Below the pieces are notes generated by a model. That model was not told the DNA's origin, made no database searches, and was given only the letters and a program-made list of their open reading frames with translations. From Bolinopsis microptera (taxonomy: Eukaryota > Ctenophora > Tentaculata > Lobata > Bolinopsidae), in assembly GCF_026151205.1 (NCBI RefSeq), contig NC_087074.1:9093726-9157725 (forward strand): a stretch of DNA of 64,000 bases. The letters run 5' to 3'. Shown here in pieces: positions 54,401-64,000 of this stretch; the stretch's first letter is position 1, and each line of letters begins with the position of its first letter. The position numbers were made by a program, and so were the translations under genes.

Positions 54401-57400
54401 CAGCTACTGTGTCAGTTACTTCGTAGCACTACTGTAGCACATTGCACTCACTTAGTATCACGACTGTAGCACATTGCACTCAACACAAATTATCACCAGC
54501 TCCCCCACGTACATAGAGACTGAGTTTCCTCCAAGTTTCCTCCTACGCCGAGAAGCAGAGAGTTTCCTCTCCTATTCCTTTCCTCCTTTTCACCTATTCC
54601 GGGTTCCCCTCTAGCTCTACTATCCAGCAGGCTATGTGGCTACTGTGTGGTTACTATGTAGCTACTATTAGGTTACTATGAGGTTACTATGTGGTTACTA
54701 TGTAGCTACTATTAGGTTACTATGTGGCTACTATGTGACTACTATTAGGTTACTATGTGGATACTATGTGGCTACTATGTGGCTACTATGTGGATACTAT
54801 GTGGTTACTTTGTGGCTACTATGTGGCTACTATGTGGATACTATGTGGCTACTATGTGGCTACTATGTGGATACTATGTGGCTACTATGTGGCTACTATG
54901 TGGCTACTATGTGGCTACTATTAGGTTACTATTAGGTTACTATTAGGTTACTATTAGGTTACTATTAGGTTACTATTAGGTTACTATTAGGTTACTATGT
55001 GGCTACTATGTGACTACTATTAGGTTACTACGTGGCTACTATGTGGATACTATGTGGCTACTATGTGGCTACTATGTGGTTACTTTGTGGCTACTATGTG
55101 GCTACTATGTAGCTACTATGTGGCTACTATGTGGCTACTATGTGGCTACTATGAGGTTACTATGACGTTACTTAGACGTTACTATGAGGTTACTTTGACG
55201 TTACTATGAGGTTACTATGAGGTTACTATGAGGCTACTATGTGGTTACTTTGTGGCTACTTTGTGGCTACTATGTGGTTACTTTGTGGCTACTATGTGGA
55301 TACTTTGTGGCTACTATGTGGCTACTATGTGGCTCCTGTCCGATGTGTCAATAATGTACTAGTCATTGTTGTCCGGCTTGCTACATTAATGAATATCACT
55401 TTACAAGGCAACAATTCTATTATACGTTTAGCTAATTGTAGAGACTAATAAATGAGATGTAGTTATCATGGGGCCTGGTTACAGAAAAAATAAAGCGAAC
55501 CTGTTGGTCCACATCGCGGTTTCACATTAGTTAGGATAGAATAAAACGGCCGGAATAGAAAAAGTTTCTAAGTAGTTCACTATTCTGTCCCCCGTGTGTT
55601 TGTAACTTGTTATAACTGTAACTGTGACTTCTTTTATTTAGGAATTACAGTCTGACCCAGCTGTCTGTAGCTTTGTTAACAATTAACTTAACGAAAACAT
55701 ATATTACACTGCTTACTGCTTCTTTACTCCTCTTTTTATATTTTTGCGCTTATCCTACTACACCAGTTATTTTTTAAAAGTCTTATTTTCTTGACCCAAA
55801 TTTAATCAGACGCCCAAGATAATATTAAAAAGATTTACAGTAAATTCCAGTTTGTTTTGCTCAGCTCTATTTTACAGAGCTGCGGACCCAGCTGCACACT
55901 TGCTACTCACAACATGTTAAAACCACACGATAAATTCGGTCGCAAACAACCGTGTTTAACATTCCAACACAATTTTGCACCTTTTACGAACCTTCTGACT
56001 TCTCGCTAGGGAAAAGAAACGCCGCCAGTGTTAAAAACTACCTGCATTTTCCCCGGTACTTAGTAGAATAAAACGTACGTTGCTTGGTGACCGTGGTATT
56101 TATCTTCACTGTTAGTTACCCTGACTTCACCGTTTGAAAGTAATTCCTATGCTGAGTAGCGCTGTGAGTAGAAGAGAGAGAGAGAAACAGTGACCACATG
56201 TTTTTGTATGTTTTTGATATTTGATCTCCGCACTTGCGCACCTCTCGTATTTCTTGTTGTTTGTACTGAGCTCTCTCCACAGCCTTTATTACAGCCGGGG
56301 GGCAGCTGGGGCAGCGGTTAACATCGCTGTGTGAACTTAATATTATGTTTAGCTCTCAATATTATATGTTCTTTTTTAAGTTTTATCTATACATTACTTC
56401 TTTCTGTTTAAACTTACCGACACCACGTAGATTAGTGTTTATAATTTACGATGATGGCTCGTTTTTAAATTCAAATTTTTGGTTTTTATGTCTCACGTTG
56501 GGTAATTACTACAGAGTCTTGTGGGAAGGATCTTCTGCCCTTCTTTACATATTTGTTTACATTCTTTTGTGTGGTTAACTTTGTTTATAACGGGTTATTG
56601 TAACCCGTTACCCTGGTTATAATCAAATTGCGATGTAGCCATCAACATGCTACAATGTGGTCTTACATTCGTCTCTAATCTAAAAATGACTTAATCCAGT
56701 CGGTTTATTATTATAACTATTAAAGCCCCTTGCTGGGATCATGGACTGAATGACATATTCTCCACTAGATCATTTCTATTGTTCCTCGTGTTTATTTCAT
56801 GATCAAAATAATCAAATAAAACTTCTCCCAGTGGAAAGGATGGAGTTCCTCCGCGCGGAACAACAGCAGGCAGCGGAGCAGTTCAGCGACAAGAAACAAG
56901 TCTGGATCAATGACAAGGATCATGGCTTCGCCAAGGCTTCCATCATTAAGGACGATGGGGAAAATGTTCTCGTTCAAAATACCGTAACAATGCAGGTGAG
57001 ATCAATTTTTGATTCGGGTTTTCTCAGTATGAATTTATAAGAAAGAAAGATACAAAGTCTCCTGCCGTTATTGAGACGTCTTTAAATTCCGGTACTGATT
57101 CAACACTTCACACGAGTGCTCGATGCAATATTGCAATAAAATCTAAATTCCCATTAATCGCCAACAATCTGCACTAAGTTATTATATAAAACAAACACCG
57201 TCAATAGAAGACGTAGAAGCAACACAACATTAATAATTATCAATTAGCTAGTTGAGTGACCTGCATCTGGTCGTTAGCAGTATCCAGCGTTGCTGGTGAG
57301 GGGTGTGGTGTACGTCAGACGCCTTTACCAATTGTTACGAACATATCCTCAATCCTTTATCTAATTATCACACTAATTTATCTGGCTTGCTTTCCGCGAC

Positions 57401-60400
57401 TCCGCATATTTTAGAGCTCTGATATAGGCACTGAGTGTTGAGATACATAATGTTTTTTAGAAGCGTTGTGTTGGACAAATCAAGCGATAAATAACTGGAT
57501 ATGATCTGAGCTTAATAGGCTGTTTATTGTTTCAACATGAAAATAAAACTGTCTAGACCTTCAATTAGAATTTCCGTATTCCTTTCCGAACTAATCAATT
57601 CTGGATACTTCTACGGAACTTTCGAGATTCGATTGCTCCGGAGTCCTGGACTTTACACAAAACTGAATTCCATACCTTCAAAACATTAGCTTCGTCTCCA
57701 CACGAGGAACAGCCAATAAATGTGTGTTTGTTTCAGGAAATAACAGTAAAGAAGGAGGATATCCAGCAGATAAACCCCCCTAAGTTCGAGAAACTGGAGG
57801 ATATGGCTAACCTGACATACCTGAACGAGGCTAGTGTCCTTCACAACCTCCGACAGAGATACTTCTCATCCATGATCTACGTAAGTGAACTTGGAACAGG
57901 TCATCATAATAACCTGATATTTAACTATTCCATTAGTTGTATATATAATATTACATTAAGAATAAATTGTTTTAAGTCTGTTGATGACTATAAACTTTGA
58001 CATTGATACCGATCATGCTTAAGCATTTTGATCTCACTCGTGATATAATTGCAGCTGTAATAATATATATTGTAATGTCTAGTGTGACCAATGTCAAACA
58101 CCTACTACAGTGTTGAGTGTTTGTATCAAGTGCTTTAACTGTGATTAAGGAGTCTGAACATTTGTTAGTTAACAGCTTTTAGACAAGCCTGCTCTAAATT
58201 CTAAATCATTGTTGTAAATACAGTACATTTTTTTCCATCTCTAACTCCCAGTATTTCAACCCACGGATTACGGGAAAGTGTAAAATTTTGCCGACATATC
58301 TTGCAGAGAAAAATGCTGCATCAGGGATGTGATATATAATATACCGTGTTAAGTTAGATTTTAATATTTACGGAGGTGGGCGTGTCCTCTACAGTAAAAT
58401 ACCGGTGAGCCCGTACGACAGGGAAAAGCGCGCAGGGCTCGCCGCTCAAGATACCGAAGTGCACTAATGACTCAGAATAGTCTAACTGACCCCAGAATAG
58501 CACACCTTCCCCGAAAGTATAACCTCTTATGAAATCGAAACCTACAATTTGTAAAACATGGCGCACGTCAAAAGTTCCCTATTTTGTGGGCTACACCCGT
58601 TTAATGTAATGTCGAGTGTGTTCGGTTTAACGTAATTAGATCCGCAAACTCTCTCTGAGTTTTACACCCGCACACTTGTACAATGACGTATTGTTGGAGA
58701 AAACTTGTGTGTTCAGTGTCAGAATATAAGGGTGTGGAGTCTTGTTTCCGTTTAAACTTGTCATCGTGGAGTCACATATAAGGATTACGTTATTATGGCT
58801 GACGGAAGCTCAAAAATTACAAAGTTGTTGCCACCGAACGTCGAACTTTGAACCAATAATTGGACCCTGTTTTATCCTTCCCATAGACTCCAGGTCTCTG
58901 TGTAGAATGAATCCTGGACTCAGAGACTGACCGCCGTATTTGATTATACCGACCATATGGTGTCTGGTATGATGTGGTGGCGAGAAGTTTTAAGATGCTT
59001 AATTCCGGTGAAAGATGACACTGTACTTTGTAGAATTATCTGGGAATGAATGGATTGTGCCTTGTGCTGATTTAGCACATTCCATTGTGTGATTTCATGT
59101 TTTCCACTTACATATAACTAACAGGCCCATAAAAGGTAAACTAAGATTTAACGCTAATTATATAATGACCAGTCTTCACCCCCCCCCCCCCCAAATATAT
59201 ATCTTCAAAATGTTTGAAACCTACAAAACCCCCGAAGTGGTAACTTTGAAAGGGTGTCTGACGTAGATTGGATCAACTCTGTATGTAAACAGGATCTCAG
59301 GGGATGTTCCAGTCGTTAAAATGTCTGTGCTACACTCTACTCCACCCGTAGAATTGTTAAATATCAACGCATAACTTAATAGGAGGCTTCCGTTGTTATA
59401 TCGTGATAGGATCTCTATTGTCCTGAGTGTTGCCACTCGTCAAGGATAAATAGCCGATGATGTTTAACGGCATCTCTGGGATTTTATTAACCCCTCTTAT
59501 TTCTTCAGACCTACTCTGGCATCTTCTGTGTGGCTGTCAACCCTTACGCTAGACTGCCCATATACACTAAAGAAGTGATCAACTCTTACCGTGGAAAGAG
59601 GTACCGCCACACTTTCATCTTAACTTCTAATGCTTCGACCCTCCTCGGGAACTGCTGACCTGCTTAATTTTAAAATCAGTTAAACATTAAGTAATATGTC
59701 TGGAATGTGATTTAACTTCATGACACAGCCTACTTGTTATTTTGAGACTCCTACTAAAATGCAGTCACTGAAAAGTAAGGCTGACAAAATTTGACGTTGT
59801 AATTGAAGAATACAGAAGCGTCTCATAATATAATTTTCTCTGCACCTGACAGGAAGTAGCATTGTTGCGCAACTGCAGCCAAAATAATTTTGTGCACAAT
59901 TCCATAATTACTAAACCAACATCCTAAATCAGGCGTACGGAGATGCCCCCTCATATCTACACCGTTGCTGACGAATCTTACCAAACCATGATCCAACAGA
60001 GGGAGAATCAGTCTATCCTTATTACCGGAGAATCCGGTGCTGGAAAAACAGAAAATACCAAAAAAGGTATCATTCAATATTTTCTGTTTGACACGAAGTA
60101 TAGTTAATGAGAAAGTTTGTTCATGCATTATCCCAGATAAACTCTTGATAATGTAATGTTATGTTTTTTGATAAAATGATATTTTTAAGGTAACAATTTC
60201 ATTTTTTAATATAAAAAACGCATGAAATGTAAAAAAGGAGTAAAATAATGGCTGTGTAAACATCACTTGACCCTCTGCCTTGCCCAGTTATCCAATACTT
60301 TGCCTCAATTTGCGGGGTTGAGAGTAAAAGTACCGATGGTAGCAATCTGGATGAACAGCTTGTCCGATGTAATCCTGTCCTTGAGGCTTTCGGAAACGCC

Positions 60401-63400
60401 AAGACTATCAAGAACGACAACTCTTCCAGATTCGGAAAATTCATCCGTATTCATTTCGGAACCCAGGGCAAAATCCATAGGTAAATTAATGATTTATTAT
60501 GCATGCAGTTTAGTTTTGTACTTAACACTACATCTTCAGTTGTATCCTACTTCGCATCAGTCTGTGGAGTGGGTGATCAGGTTGGCCAAAGCAACAGTGA
60601 CCCTGAGTCCCCGGAAGGAAAAACCACACTTGACCAGGCCCTTGTCCGATGTAATCCTGTCCTTGAGGCGTTCGGAAACGCCAAAACCCTGAAAAACGAC
60701 AACTCCTCGCGATTTGGAAAGTTTATAAGGATACATTTTGGTGGTACCGGGAAGATTCATAGGTAACACGAGTTGCTGATCGCTGAAGTGCGATAGTGTG
60801 TCATCCCGTTTTGTGAAGCTGTCTTTCCTAATGAACTCTATAGCTAAAGTTTGATTTTACTGCTGTTTGAATTCTTCAATCAATGACTGAGTGAAGAACG
60901 CGGTATTTTGACAGAGTGATTTTGTTTCGCGAGAGGGAAAAAGGTCAATTCAAAGGAACCGGCTTACTTTGAAATGAATACATTTTTTGCTTTTTGTGTG
61001 CGAGGTTTGCAGTGTGAAGTTGTGTGAAGTTCAGAAGTTGTGTGAATTGTGTGAAGCCGAACCAGCTACATATACCGCTATTCTTAAATTCTTGCTAAAG
61101 ATAATCGCTAACAGGAATCGCTAAAGGGAATCGCTAAAGGGAATCGCTAAAGGGAATCGCTGATTATTGCGTTGCTGTTACTCGATTCTAATACTTATCA
61201 TTAAACCAACTCTCTTATCATTAAATCAATCATTAAATTCCTTTAAATGTGGTTCAAACTAGTGATGTGATGAACTATTTTCAATTATGAACTGGACTTG
61301 TTTCCATTTAAAAAGACTCTTAAAAACTATCTTACCCAATAATTTCCACCCAGTGCTGACATAGAGAGGTATCTTCTGGAGAAGGCAAGAGTAACTTATC
61401 AGAACCCTGATGAGAGATCTTTCCATATCTTCTATCAGATGCTCAAGGGAATGAACGCTGACGAGCGTGAGTATTCGGAGAATCTTGGTGTTTCTTTATA
61501 AATCATAAACCGCCCGACTTGTTTTTCCTGTCTAATATAGGAATTTGATGGTGATATAAGCGGGATATAGATGGGAATGTAATCAATGTTTTTTAATTAT
61601 TTTAAAACCTACCAATCTTCCTAACCCATGGATCATATCTTAGTTAACATGGATAATATCTTAGTCAACACTATTCAACACACTTGTCTAATAAGACATG
61701 AACAGATCTTGTTTTACAGTAAAGGACTGCCTGTTGACCAACAGTCCCAACAATTACGCGGTGCTCAGTAACGGAGATGTCATCGTTGACAGTCTGGCAG
61801 ATCCAGATCTCTTCCTGGAGACCCAACAGTGCATGGGTGTCCTCAACTTCTCCAGTTAGTACTTCTTCACCCCAAATTCTTTCTTTAAATTTTTTCCATT
61901 TCACCCTTTTGTAAAAAGGCAATAGTGAAAGGTTACGAATGGAGGTTTTTGCAGAAAAACGTGGATTTTGGAGATTGCGGTAGGTGGGTCAAATATATGT
62001 CGTGTTCCTTGCTTACTTCCGTTCGTTACCAAGCAACGAAAAAGTTGCGCGCGTGCGAGAATTGCTTGCGGAGATGTGATGTATAGATAGCCTGTGATCT
62101 ATGAATGCGCGGCGCGACTGTGTTTTAATGTATATGATGCATGTAATTTGTATAATATTACTATTAGGTAATACACCCAATTTGTACGTGGCACGTGTAG
62201 TGTATTGATGTGTATACTCGAGTATAGTTTACCTTTGCTGATAATTTCTTGAATTACAGATACAAGTTAAGTTCTACGGCAATTGAACTGAATTTCAAGT
62301 GTTTCCCGTATTTGATGCATAATTTATCAATATTATTATCATGAAGATTGAAGTGAGCTGATCGGAGCTTATACTTAAATTTATAGTAAATGTGGAATGG
62401 AAATCTAGCGTCCGCCAAAACGAAACAACGGGCGCAATTCTTGTTAAATTCTTAAATTCAACTTTAACTGTGAACGTTGTACAATGTACGTTTTAGACGG
62501 TTTTTCACTTAGGTATTCGTAGCAACTACCAAATTTCCGACCTGGCTTCGTCCAATTACACCAATTATCTTTGCCCGAAGTTGACTATTAGTACTATAAG
62601 TACTAATTGTAAATAGTCAATCAATACTAGCCTTTGACACGAACCTGATTACCATTGTTCTTGTTAGTTATCCTAACGGAATGCTATATAATATTGCTAT
62701 ACGTTAGTCGGCATTCGTCACAATGAAAATGTCATATTCGTATCATAACTTTTGATACGTTAACTCTGACCAATTCTTATATTTGACACATTATAAAGTA
62801 TACAGTTAAAACGTGGTACGAAACTGAGTTTTTTATGAACGGAATAACAGATACCTCATTACCAAATTATGTTATAATTATTTCACGATCTATCACACTA
62901 TATGCTAACTGTTACCCATCACTAACGGTTACCCCTCACTTATCGTTACCCCTCACTAATCGTTACCCCTCACTAATCGTTGCCCCTCACTAATCGTTAC
63001 CCCTCACTAACCGCTACCAAACTTTCAGAGGAACTACAGAGGAAGATATTCAGGTTCGCTGCTGGAGTACTACATCTTGGTAACACCCAGCTGAAGTCCA
63101 ACAAGAGAGATGAGGGTTGTACCATTGATGACGCTCAGGTACGATTTGGGAGAGAGTTGATTTTTAGGTGTTTTTAGGGTTTAAAATTTATTCGGTATTA
63201 TCATTAACTTAATGACTGATGATTTGGTTCTTTATAAAGATTAAAATAGATGGTCGATGTGACTTTTAGTGTGTTCGGTATTATTGTAAAGTTAATGGCT
63301 GATGACTTTGATTTGATATCATGTCCTAAGTCTTCAATTGGTGTGCATTCCATACACCGCAAAAGGTTTTCTGCCCGCTAATATAGTAATATAGTAATAT

Positions 63401-63898
63401 ATTAGCAGTATTGAATATTTACTAAATACTTCACAGTGGATCGACAAAGCTTGCCACATGTTTGGTGTAAACGCTGTCGAGATGACCAAAGCTCTGATCA
63501 AACCTAGGATCAAAGTAGGAAACGAGTACGTCCACAAGGGTCAGAACGCAGAACAGGTTAGTCGGTCGTGGTCACCAGCTTCAATACCGTCTCTTAATAG
63601 TAAGCTTAGTCAGTCGTGGTCACCAGCTTCAATACCGTCTCTTAATAGTAAGCTTTAAGTCCCAACTTCTACAATGCCAAATAGTGGACAAAATAGGTTG
63701 GTATGAGATGGCTCTAATTTCTAGATTACGACAGTTACCCTACTTCAGGTAAAATACAGTATCAATGCCCTTTGTAAGAGTGTGTTCGAGAAGCTGTTTA
63801 AACTTGTTCTGGACATGTGTAACGAGACACTCGAGACCAAACTCAGGAAGAACTTCTTCATTGGTGTTCTTGATATTGCTGGATTCGAAATCTTCGAG
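45421..63898 (+). CDS. Muscle-type myosin II heavy chain, N-terminal motor part (gene continues right)
   Basis: Actin-based motor heavy chain. Exons: 45421-45460, 56832-56995, 57737-57880, 59509-59600, 59933-60066, then either 60288-60480 or 60540-60762, 61354-61466, 61720-61854, 63029-63138, 63437-63556, 63749-63898. They join to 465 (or 475) codons without a stop; a full heavy chain is about 1,900-1,950. Landmarks: N-terminal SH3-like strand [36 protein letters not shown]-loop [11 protein letters not shown], switch [21 protein letters not shown], switch [11 protein letters not shown]. The short head ([13 protein letters not shown]) is encoded before an 11.4-kb intron. The motor is closest in feel to striated-type animal muscle myosin rather than the non-muscle type, but the rod, which would settle it, is outside the window. 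Confidence 0.92.
45461..56831 (+). other. Myosin first intron, 11.4 kb
   Basis: Large intron between the 13-codon first exon and the motor domain; such first introns in muscle genes often hold enhancers. I see no nested gene. It contains simple sequence: CT runs at 50047-50071 and 51605-51660, a GT run near 49107, a G run at 52770-52786, an 11-bp minisatellite at 54632-55334, and a short palindrome TAACGGGTTA/TAACCCGTTA at 56588-56610. The hexapyrimidine stretches and E-box-like CACGTG sites (e.g. 46317, 46799) are not specific enough to call enhancers. Confidence 0.6.
54632..55334. repeat. Minisatellite, 11-bp unit TGTGGCTACTA
   Basis: About 60 units of TGTGGCTACTA and variants (TTAGGTTACTA, TGTGGATACTA, TGAGGTTACTA). 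The variants are grouped: seven TTAGG units in a row at 54918-54996, and TGAGG/TGACG units at 55150-55235. Because 33 bases equal 11 codons, long repeated open frames arise by chance. Confidence 0.95.
60288..60480 (+). CDS. Myosin exon 6a (short loop 1), mutually exclusive with 6b
   Basis: 193 nt, entry after one codon base and exit after two. It encodes [18 protein letters not shown].. [19 protein letters not shown], switch I ([16 protein letters not shown]) and TQGKIH. It lies 221 bases after exon 5 and 59 bases before exon 6b. Loop 1, between the P-loop helix and LDEQL, is ten residues shorter than in 6b. Confidence 0.9.
60540..60762 (+). CDS. Myosin exon 6b (long loop 1), mutually exclusive with 6a
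   Basis: 223 nt with the same entry and exit phase as 6a. It encodes the same stretch with loop 1 [19 protein letters not shown] before TTLDQALV, and the same switch I. Over 45 bases around CTTGTCCGATGTAATCCTGT the two exons are almost identical, while both flanks differ at many third positions. Using both exons would shift the frame. Confidence 0.9.
61114..61161. repeat. 13-bp tandem GGAATCGCTAAAG
   Basis: Four units in the intron between exon 6b and exon 7 of the myosin gene, followed by the near-copy GGAATCGCTGATT. Confidence 0.8.
61855..63028 (+). other. Myosin intron before exon 9, no gene seen
   Basis: AT-rich intron without a supported exon. A missing small exon was considered, but exon 8 (ends NFS) joins exon 9 (KELQRK) in phase and in family order, so none is needed. 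Confidence 0.6.
62906..63018. repeat. 18-bp minisatellite next to the exon 9 acceptor
   Basis: About six units of CTCACTAATCGTTACCCC and variants, ending ten bases before the CAG of exon 9 (acceptor 63026-63028). The pyrimidine-rich units could act as, or lengthen, the polypyrimidine tract. Confidence 0.85.
63558..63653. repeat. 48-bp direct duplication in a myosin intron
   Basis: 63558-63605 is repeated at 63606-63653 with one difference (GTCGGTCG against GTCAGTCG). It starts one base after the G of the exon 10 donor, and the second copy has C in place of that G, so the donor itself was not duplicated. Confidence 0.9.
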
Positions 63899-64000
63899 GT
63901 AAGTTGGTTTCTCTAACCTGTATGAATAAATAAACAGTGATATCCCCAGTTTCCTGTTCTCCTCGTTGTATCGTTTTCATGATTTTGTTTCTAATGTGAT

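Follow-up and report, generated by a model that had tools for sequence, protein, structure and literature searches.

The closest described counterpart of the locus considered here comes from another ctenophore. In the Mhc2 gene of Mnemiopsis leidyi, Kollmar and Hatje (2014, PMC3912159) described a pair of mutually exclusive exons that begins at the helix following the P-loop and extends to the loop behind the strand that comes after switch 1. Loop 1 is nine residues longer in the 3' exon, from which a different release of adenosine diphosphate (ADP) was predicted, and the pair was named cluster-0 and presented there as being without counterpart elsewhere. We report a similar pair in Bolinopsis microptera, within a window of 64,000 nucleotides (nt) on contig NC_087074.1 (positions 9,093,726 to 9,157,725 of the forward strand, assembly GCF_026151205.1), the window being the whole stretch of DNA that was analysed. 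Its right end holds the motor part of a class-II myosin heavy chain gene, and two adjacent exons of this gene, 6a and 6b, would provide alternative versions of one segment of the motor.

Compared by published description, the two ctenophore pairs have much in common: a muscle-clade Mhc gene, the same span, the longer loop 1 in the 3' exon, a second difference in the last loop, and a single cluster per gene. They differ in species and in the extra length of loop 1, which is ten residues here. Here, moreover, the 59-nt intron between the two exons is set against a survey of introns from the same genome. In the scallops Argopecten and Placopecten, alternative exons of one Mhc gene likewise alter loop 1, with ties to ADP release and speed (PMC3912159), but in those animals two clusters (cluster-2 and cluster-3), meeting at the end of loop 1, divide the region between them. 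This protostome boundary, which parts the P-loop and loop 1 from switch 1, is absent from the Bolinopsis gene, where loop 1 and switch 1 share an exon. A likeness of another kind is offered by exons 4a/4b of vertebrate OGDH, a pair kept apart by a spacing between 5' splice site and branch site that falls below a proposed threshold of ~50 nt (PMC7969005); the OGDH branch points are mapped and distant, whereas here the entire intron measures 59 nt and the branch is predicted.

The initial annotation of this DNA named scallop and Drosophila as precedents and omitted the closest one, the ctenophore pair (PMC3912159). We found no further report of alternatively spliced or mutually exclusive exons in a myosin of Mnemiopsis or other ctenophores, the candidates having been judged mostly by title and the opening of the abstract, and the available part of PMC5583752 (Mnemiopsis, myosin, mutually exclusive) held nothing on this exon pair. 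The pair in the window apparently fits as a well-preserved second example of an already predicted ctenophore exon pair. Our reading as a whole, to which we assign a probability of roughly 0.85, is that the gene is ctenophore Mhc2 (MHCIIb2) carrying a two-exon, mutually exclusive cluster-0, in which the 59-nt intron imposes a steric block and the choice of exon swaps loop 1.

Anatomy of the exon pair

Exons 6a and 6b (Table 1) both have lengths of 1 modulo 3 and share their entry and exit phases, each opening with two bases of a V codon and closing after two bases of the next codon. Both match the Pfam family Myosin_head at the same place (6a, E 9.6e-24, profile positions 106-166; 6b, E 3.7e-21, 107-166), and the encoded proteins share 66% identity across 73 alignment columns. 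The coordinates, phases and common motor segment given in the initial annotation proved exact to the base.

Frames of the conceivable splice products were read by script and interpreted through exon 7. The products 5-6a-7 and 5-6b-7 remain open through that exon. Joining both alternatives, which had been claimed to shift the frame, indeed leads to an early stop, as 5-6a-6b terminates in 6b, 12 codons from the junction codon. The product that skips both (5-7) reaches a stop after three codons, in exon 7, and retention of the 59-nt intron brings a stop at the first whole intron codon.

Fifteen exon queries, with the first coding exon and the tail exons lying outside this set, were compared with window positions 56000-64000 and with locus L005; only the 6a/6b pair emerged convincingly as duplicated, the next-best match having an E of 0.007 over 31 residues. 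Apart from the locus itself, a near-copy search returned six weaker matches, all of them in other myosin loci, and hence no second haplotype of the region.

Loop 1 is ten residues longer in 6b than in 6a when counted from YFAS to CNP, and switch I is identical in the two exons, both as initially annotated. A second difference concerns the turn behind the strand that follows switch I; this turn reads GTQGK in 6a and GGTGK in 6b. In alignments to solved structures, the YFAS-CNP stretch is matched with IGDRSKK...GTL of cardiac myosin, the region known as loop 1. The loop is also named in PMC3912159. By hand count, the same stretch comprises 21 residues in Mhc1, the heavy chain gene at C3:4.91 Mb, and 26 in the aligned Myosin-6 chain; in length 6a is thus close to Mhc1, 6b being the long form. 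A disordered loop 1 is to be expected, and the earlier description of the 6b loop as Ser/Pro/Glu-rich, judged by eye, was fair if loose. It is reasonable to suppose, as the 2014 paper already did (PMC3912159), that the two forms may differ in speed or in the release of ADP; going by other myosins, the longer loop of 6b would release ADP faster.

The other heavy chain genes arrange this region in their own ways. In Mhc1 (L001, G000:C3:4908755-4912600) a single long exon holds the P-loop, loop 1 and switch I, and the introns found on either side of exon 6 of the gene in the window are absent. In the non-muscle heavy chain gene on C6 (L008, G000:C6:14630500-14635500), loop 1 is very long and is broken by an intron with a modelled length of 1205 nt, the right side of which is weakly supported.

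Following loop 1, the two exons have 40 codons in common, 19 of them identical, 18 differing synonymously and 3 by replacement. A duplicate free of selection would mostly show replacements. Because synonymous differences so outnumber replacements, 6a and 6b both look as if they were maintained by selection. The first 14 of these codons, 13 of them identical, lie in a tract of 44 nt common to both exons (60359-60402 and 60641-60684) with one mismatch, which gives way abruptly to many synonymous differences. The longest run of identical codons had a permutation p of 0.014, and the tract hints at a small gene conversion or at a constraint acting on the RNA.

Table 1. Features of the exon pair and its surroundings, in window positions; slashes mark exon boundaries.
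Feature	Position	Strand	Details
Exon 5 (P-loop exon)	59933..60066	+	ends inside TENTKK/V, phase 1
P-loop GESGAGKT	60027-60050	+	within exon 5
Intron 5 to 6a	60067..60287	+	221 nt; donor GTATCATT, branch-like TCACTTGAC
Exon 6a, short loop 1	60288..60480	+	193 nt; acceptor ..CCCAG/TT, donor ATAG/GTAAAT
6a YFAS-to-CNP stretch	60308-60367	+	20 residues
6a switch I	60413-60436	+	NDNSSRFG
Intron between 6a and 6b	60481..60539	+	59 nt
Exon 6b, long loop 1	60540..60762	+	223 nt; acceptor ..CTTCAG/TT, donor TAG/GTAACA
6b YFAS-to-CNP stretch	60560-60649	+	30 residues
6b switch I	60695-60718	+	NDNSSRFG
Intron 6b to 7	60763..61353	+	591 nt; joining 6a to 7 would remove 873 nt
Exon 7, common acceptor	61354..61466	+	completes the codon begun in 6a or 6b

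Two features of the introns may be added. A run of 13-nt repeats resembling GCTAAAGGGAATC occupies window positions 61094-61161, between 6b and exon 7. An intron of the gene contains two open reading frames that, identified by eye, resemble the reverse transcriptase and endonuclease of a non-LTR element (L005 2869-5104, minus strand).

Length of the intervening intron

The intron between 6a and 6b had been called too short to splice, a claim best judged by the habits of its own genome (264.65 Mb in 232 contigs). A custom spliced protein-to-DNA aligner that allowed introns down to 25 nt was applied to 13 kinesin, 12 dynein and 4 myosin stretches and yielded 138 introns. Of these, 93 were kept as well aligned on both sides and 45 were dropped (score <8 over 8 residues on either side). 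A further 11 introns, which came from a muscle query aligned with poor fit to three other myosin loci (L007, L010, L011), were set aside from the 138. Two near-identical kinesin copies, L015 and L017, account for four introns each among the 138 and one each among the 93. These copies (G000:C13:4981100 and 5067900) lie ~87 kb apart, their third introns measure 1062 and 122 nt, and they may represent a recent duplication or an assembly artefact.

Median intron length was 208 nt among the 138 and 199 nt among the 93. The shortest surveyed intron, of 85 nt, passed the filter yet is doubtful, as the exon next to it measures 5 nt and the alignment (L020) contains an in-frame stop; the next were 101, 103, 107 and 110 nt among the 93, joined by 90, 99 and 100 nt among the 138. 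The shortest of the 11 set-aside introns measured 77 and 93 nt. The 59-nt intron is shorter than every one of these, surveyed or set aside, and for this genome the claim that it is too short is supported. Its best branch-like motif, CTTAAC, falls at intron positions 41-46 with the A at 45 as the predicted branch.

How the two exons may be kept apart

Two-exon exclusion is described as being enforced by short introns, by incompatibility of the U2 and U12 spliceosomes, or by nonsense-mediated decay, with competing RNA structure named as the major mechanism (PMC6071210), and a threshold of ~50 nt between 5' splice site and branch site has been proposed (PMC7969005). On the strength of this threshold and of the intron survey, we infer a steric block. 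Exon 5 would be joined to 6a or to 6b, and either would then be joined to exon 7; joining 6a to 6b would be prevented, since in the 59-nt intron the 5' splice site and the branch site would lie too close together. Products that contain both exons, or neither, are out of frame and would presumably be removed by nonsense-mediated decay. The choice of exon would thereby swap loop 1, leaving the P-loop and switch I unchanged, and the outcome would be two kinetic forms of a striated-clade myosin II that, going by Pleurobrachia, may be mainly non-muscle. The most likely mechanism of exclusion is a steric block due to the short intron, with frameshift and decay as a backup. The initial proposal of mutually exclusive loop-1 exons that keep switch I is well supported by the anatomy, the frames, the intron survey, the signs of selection and the Mnemiopsis twin (PMC3912159). 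We consider mutual exclusion itself very likely.

Incompatibility of spliceosomes is a possible mechanism, weaker than the steric block, and on balance an unlikely explanation of the pair, although it may act alongside the short intron. It supposes that intron 5 is U12-type, which would make the acceptors of 6a and 6b U12-type, and that their donors are U2-type, so that joining 6a to 6b would require a mixture of both systems. A possible U2/U12 incompatibility is likewise known for human JNK exons 6a/6b, also a two-exon case, from which the present one differs in that its U12-like donor is off consensus. Genome matches over the cut-off comprised U12 (89 bits) and two copies of U6atac (83 and 79 bits). 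The exon 5 donor, GTATCATT, agrees with the U12 donor consensus RTATCCTT at 7 of 8 positions, a score reached by two of the 93 introns, intron 5 being one. A branch-like motif, ACTTRAC, is present at both acceptors, 6a and 6b, with 7 of 9 matches to the U12 consensus (at least 7 in 11 of the 93 introns, that of 6a included). Among the 93, intron 5 alone combines a donor score of at least 6 with a branch score of at least 7. However, position +6 of the donor is not the C found in nearly all U12 introns, and no compensating change is seen in U6atac, whose AAGGA box, which should pair with a U12-type donor, is unchanged. The motifs CTTAAC and CTTGAC fit a U2 branch site too, U11 was not found in the genome search (which is no proof of its absence), and the resemblance of intron 5 to U12 introns was noticed post hoc. 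The main text of a survey of minor introns (PMC10639083) contained none of the ctenophore terms looked for, and we found no paper that treats Mnemiopsis together with U12-type introns and the minor spliceosome. On an improbable reading, a non-muscle, striated-clade myosin II would be tuned by a loop-1 switch with two locks, an intron below the splicing floor of the genome and a U12-type intron 5 that makes the 6a-6b join impossible for either spliceosome.

Alternatively, RNA-binding proteins or a looping RNA pairing might separate 6a from 6b, the short intron being incidental. Competing RNA structure has the general standing noted above, and a 16-nt pair, 88% complementary, connects the start of the 59-nt intron (60483-60498) with the intron before exon 7 (61224-61239) in a manner that would loop out 6b. 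The arms of this pair are, however, A+T-rich and represent one of 14 inverted pairs in a stretch of 1287 nt, for which chance is a likely source (as judged without a shuffle control); none of the 14 offers a convincing RNA structure across the introns. Incidental shortness also sits poorly with an intron that is an extreme outlier in length, and a regulator choosing between 6a and 6b is needed under any mechanism, all of which leaves this explanation improbable. It is very improbable indeed that either exon is an unused or decaying copy in a gene with a single isoform, for although the use of 6a and 6b was read from genome sequence alone, both are open, with splice sites and the right phases, differ far more by synonymous than by replacement changes, and have a reported parallel in Mnemiopsis (PMC3912159).

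Identity of the gene and its likely place of action

Matches to the tail domain revealed three class-II heavy chain genes in the genome, namely that at C3:4.91 Mb, that in the window and that on C6. The first scores best with muscle myosins (174 bits, against 137 for smooth muscle) and the C6 gene with non-muscle myosin (113 against 103 bits), and in the gene in the window 6a, 6b and one later exon all score highest with muscle myosins. Mnemiopsis leidyi is reported to have three Mhc genes, two of them in the muscle clade (PMC3912159), and the two muscle-type genes and one non-muscle gene found here therefore match its gene set. Judged by score, the gene in the window is placed in the striated-muscle (MHCIIb) clade, and it is most likely the MHCIIb2/Mhc2 paralogue. 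Other proteins of the genome were also compared with ctenophore sequences. The ionotropic glutamate receptor (iGluR) L013 scored 132 bits with ML032222a and 96 with 4zdm, which we take to be proteins of Mnemiopsis and Pleurobrachia, respectively, and 76 with the next protein; a fragment of ML032222a had its best genome match at 81% identity, too low for M. leidyi itself unless the true copy is missing from the assembly. The L013 scores support a ctenophore genome well.

Several considerations weigh against the favoured reading of a ctenophore Mhc2 with sterically separated exons. Firstly, the later exon of the gene gives vertebrate and mollusc muscle myosins a thin lead (96.4 bits for skeletal and cardiac myosins, smooth muscle reaching 90.7), and muscle myosins of arthropods (88-89 bits) fall below smooth muscle. 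Secondly, orthology with Mhc2/MHCIIb2 was drawn from scores, gene count and the exon pair rather than from a tree, and a second iGluR, L012, showed no preference for ctenophore structures. Thirdly, the intron sample is composed of kinesins, dyneins and myosins, with one locus duplicated, and the branch point in the 59-nt intron is a guess. Lastly, the support for exclusivity is genomic, and the Mnemiopsis pair was likewise found by prediction (PMC3912159).

Mhc2 has been equated with PpiMHCIIb2 of Pleurobrachia pileus (PMC3912159), the expression of which is reported as strictly non-muscular, with a nerve plexus, comb cells, and oocytes and nurse cells among its sites (PMC3502136). The sequence given in that study is of the tail only and hence silent on 6a and 6b separately. 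The initial annotation had suggested that the two motors serve different muscles, a suggestion left unsupported because this orthologue is reported outside muscle (PMC3502136). A better guess is that the 6a and 6b forms may act in different non-muscle cells or at different stages.

Implications

The pair in Bolinopsis indicates that Mnemiopsis is not alone among ctenophores in having a loop-1 exon switch. Both of its exons look selected, and the short intron that would hold them apart is a real outlier in its genome. With the Pleurobrachia orthologue being reported outside muscle, the question is raised of why two forms of a motor would be kept for a non-muscle job, and it is raised in animals whose muscle may have evolved independently.

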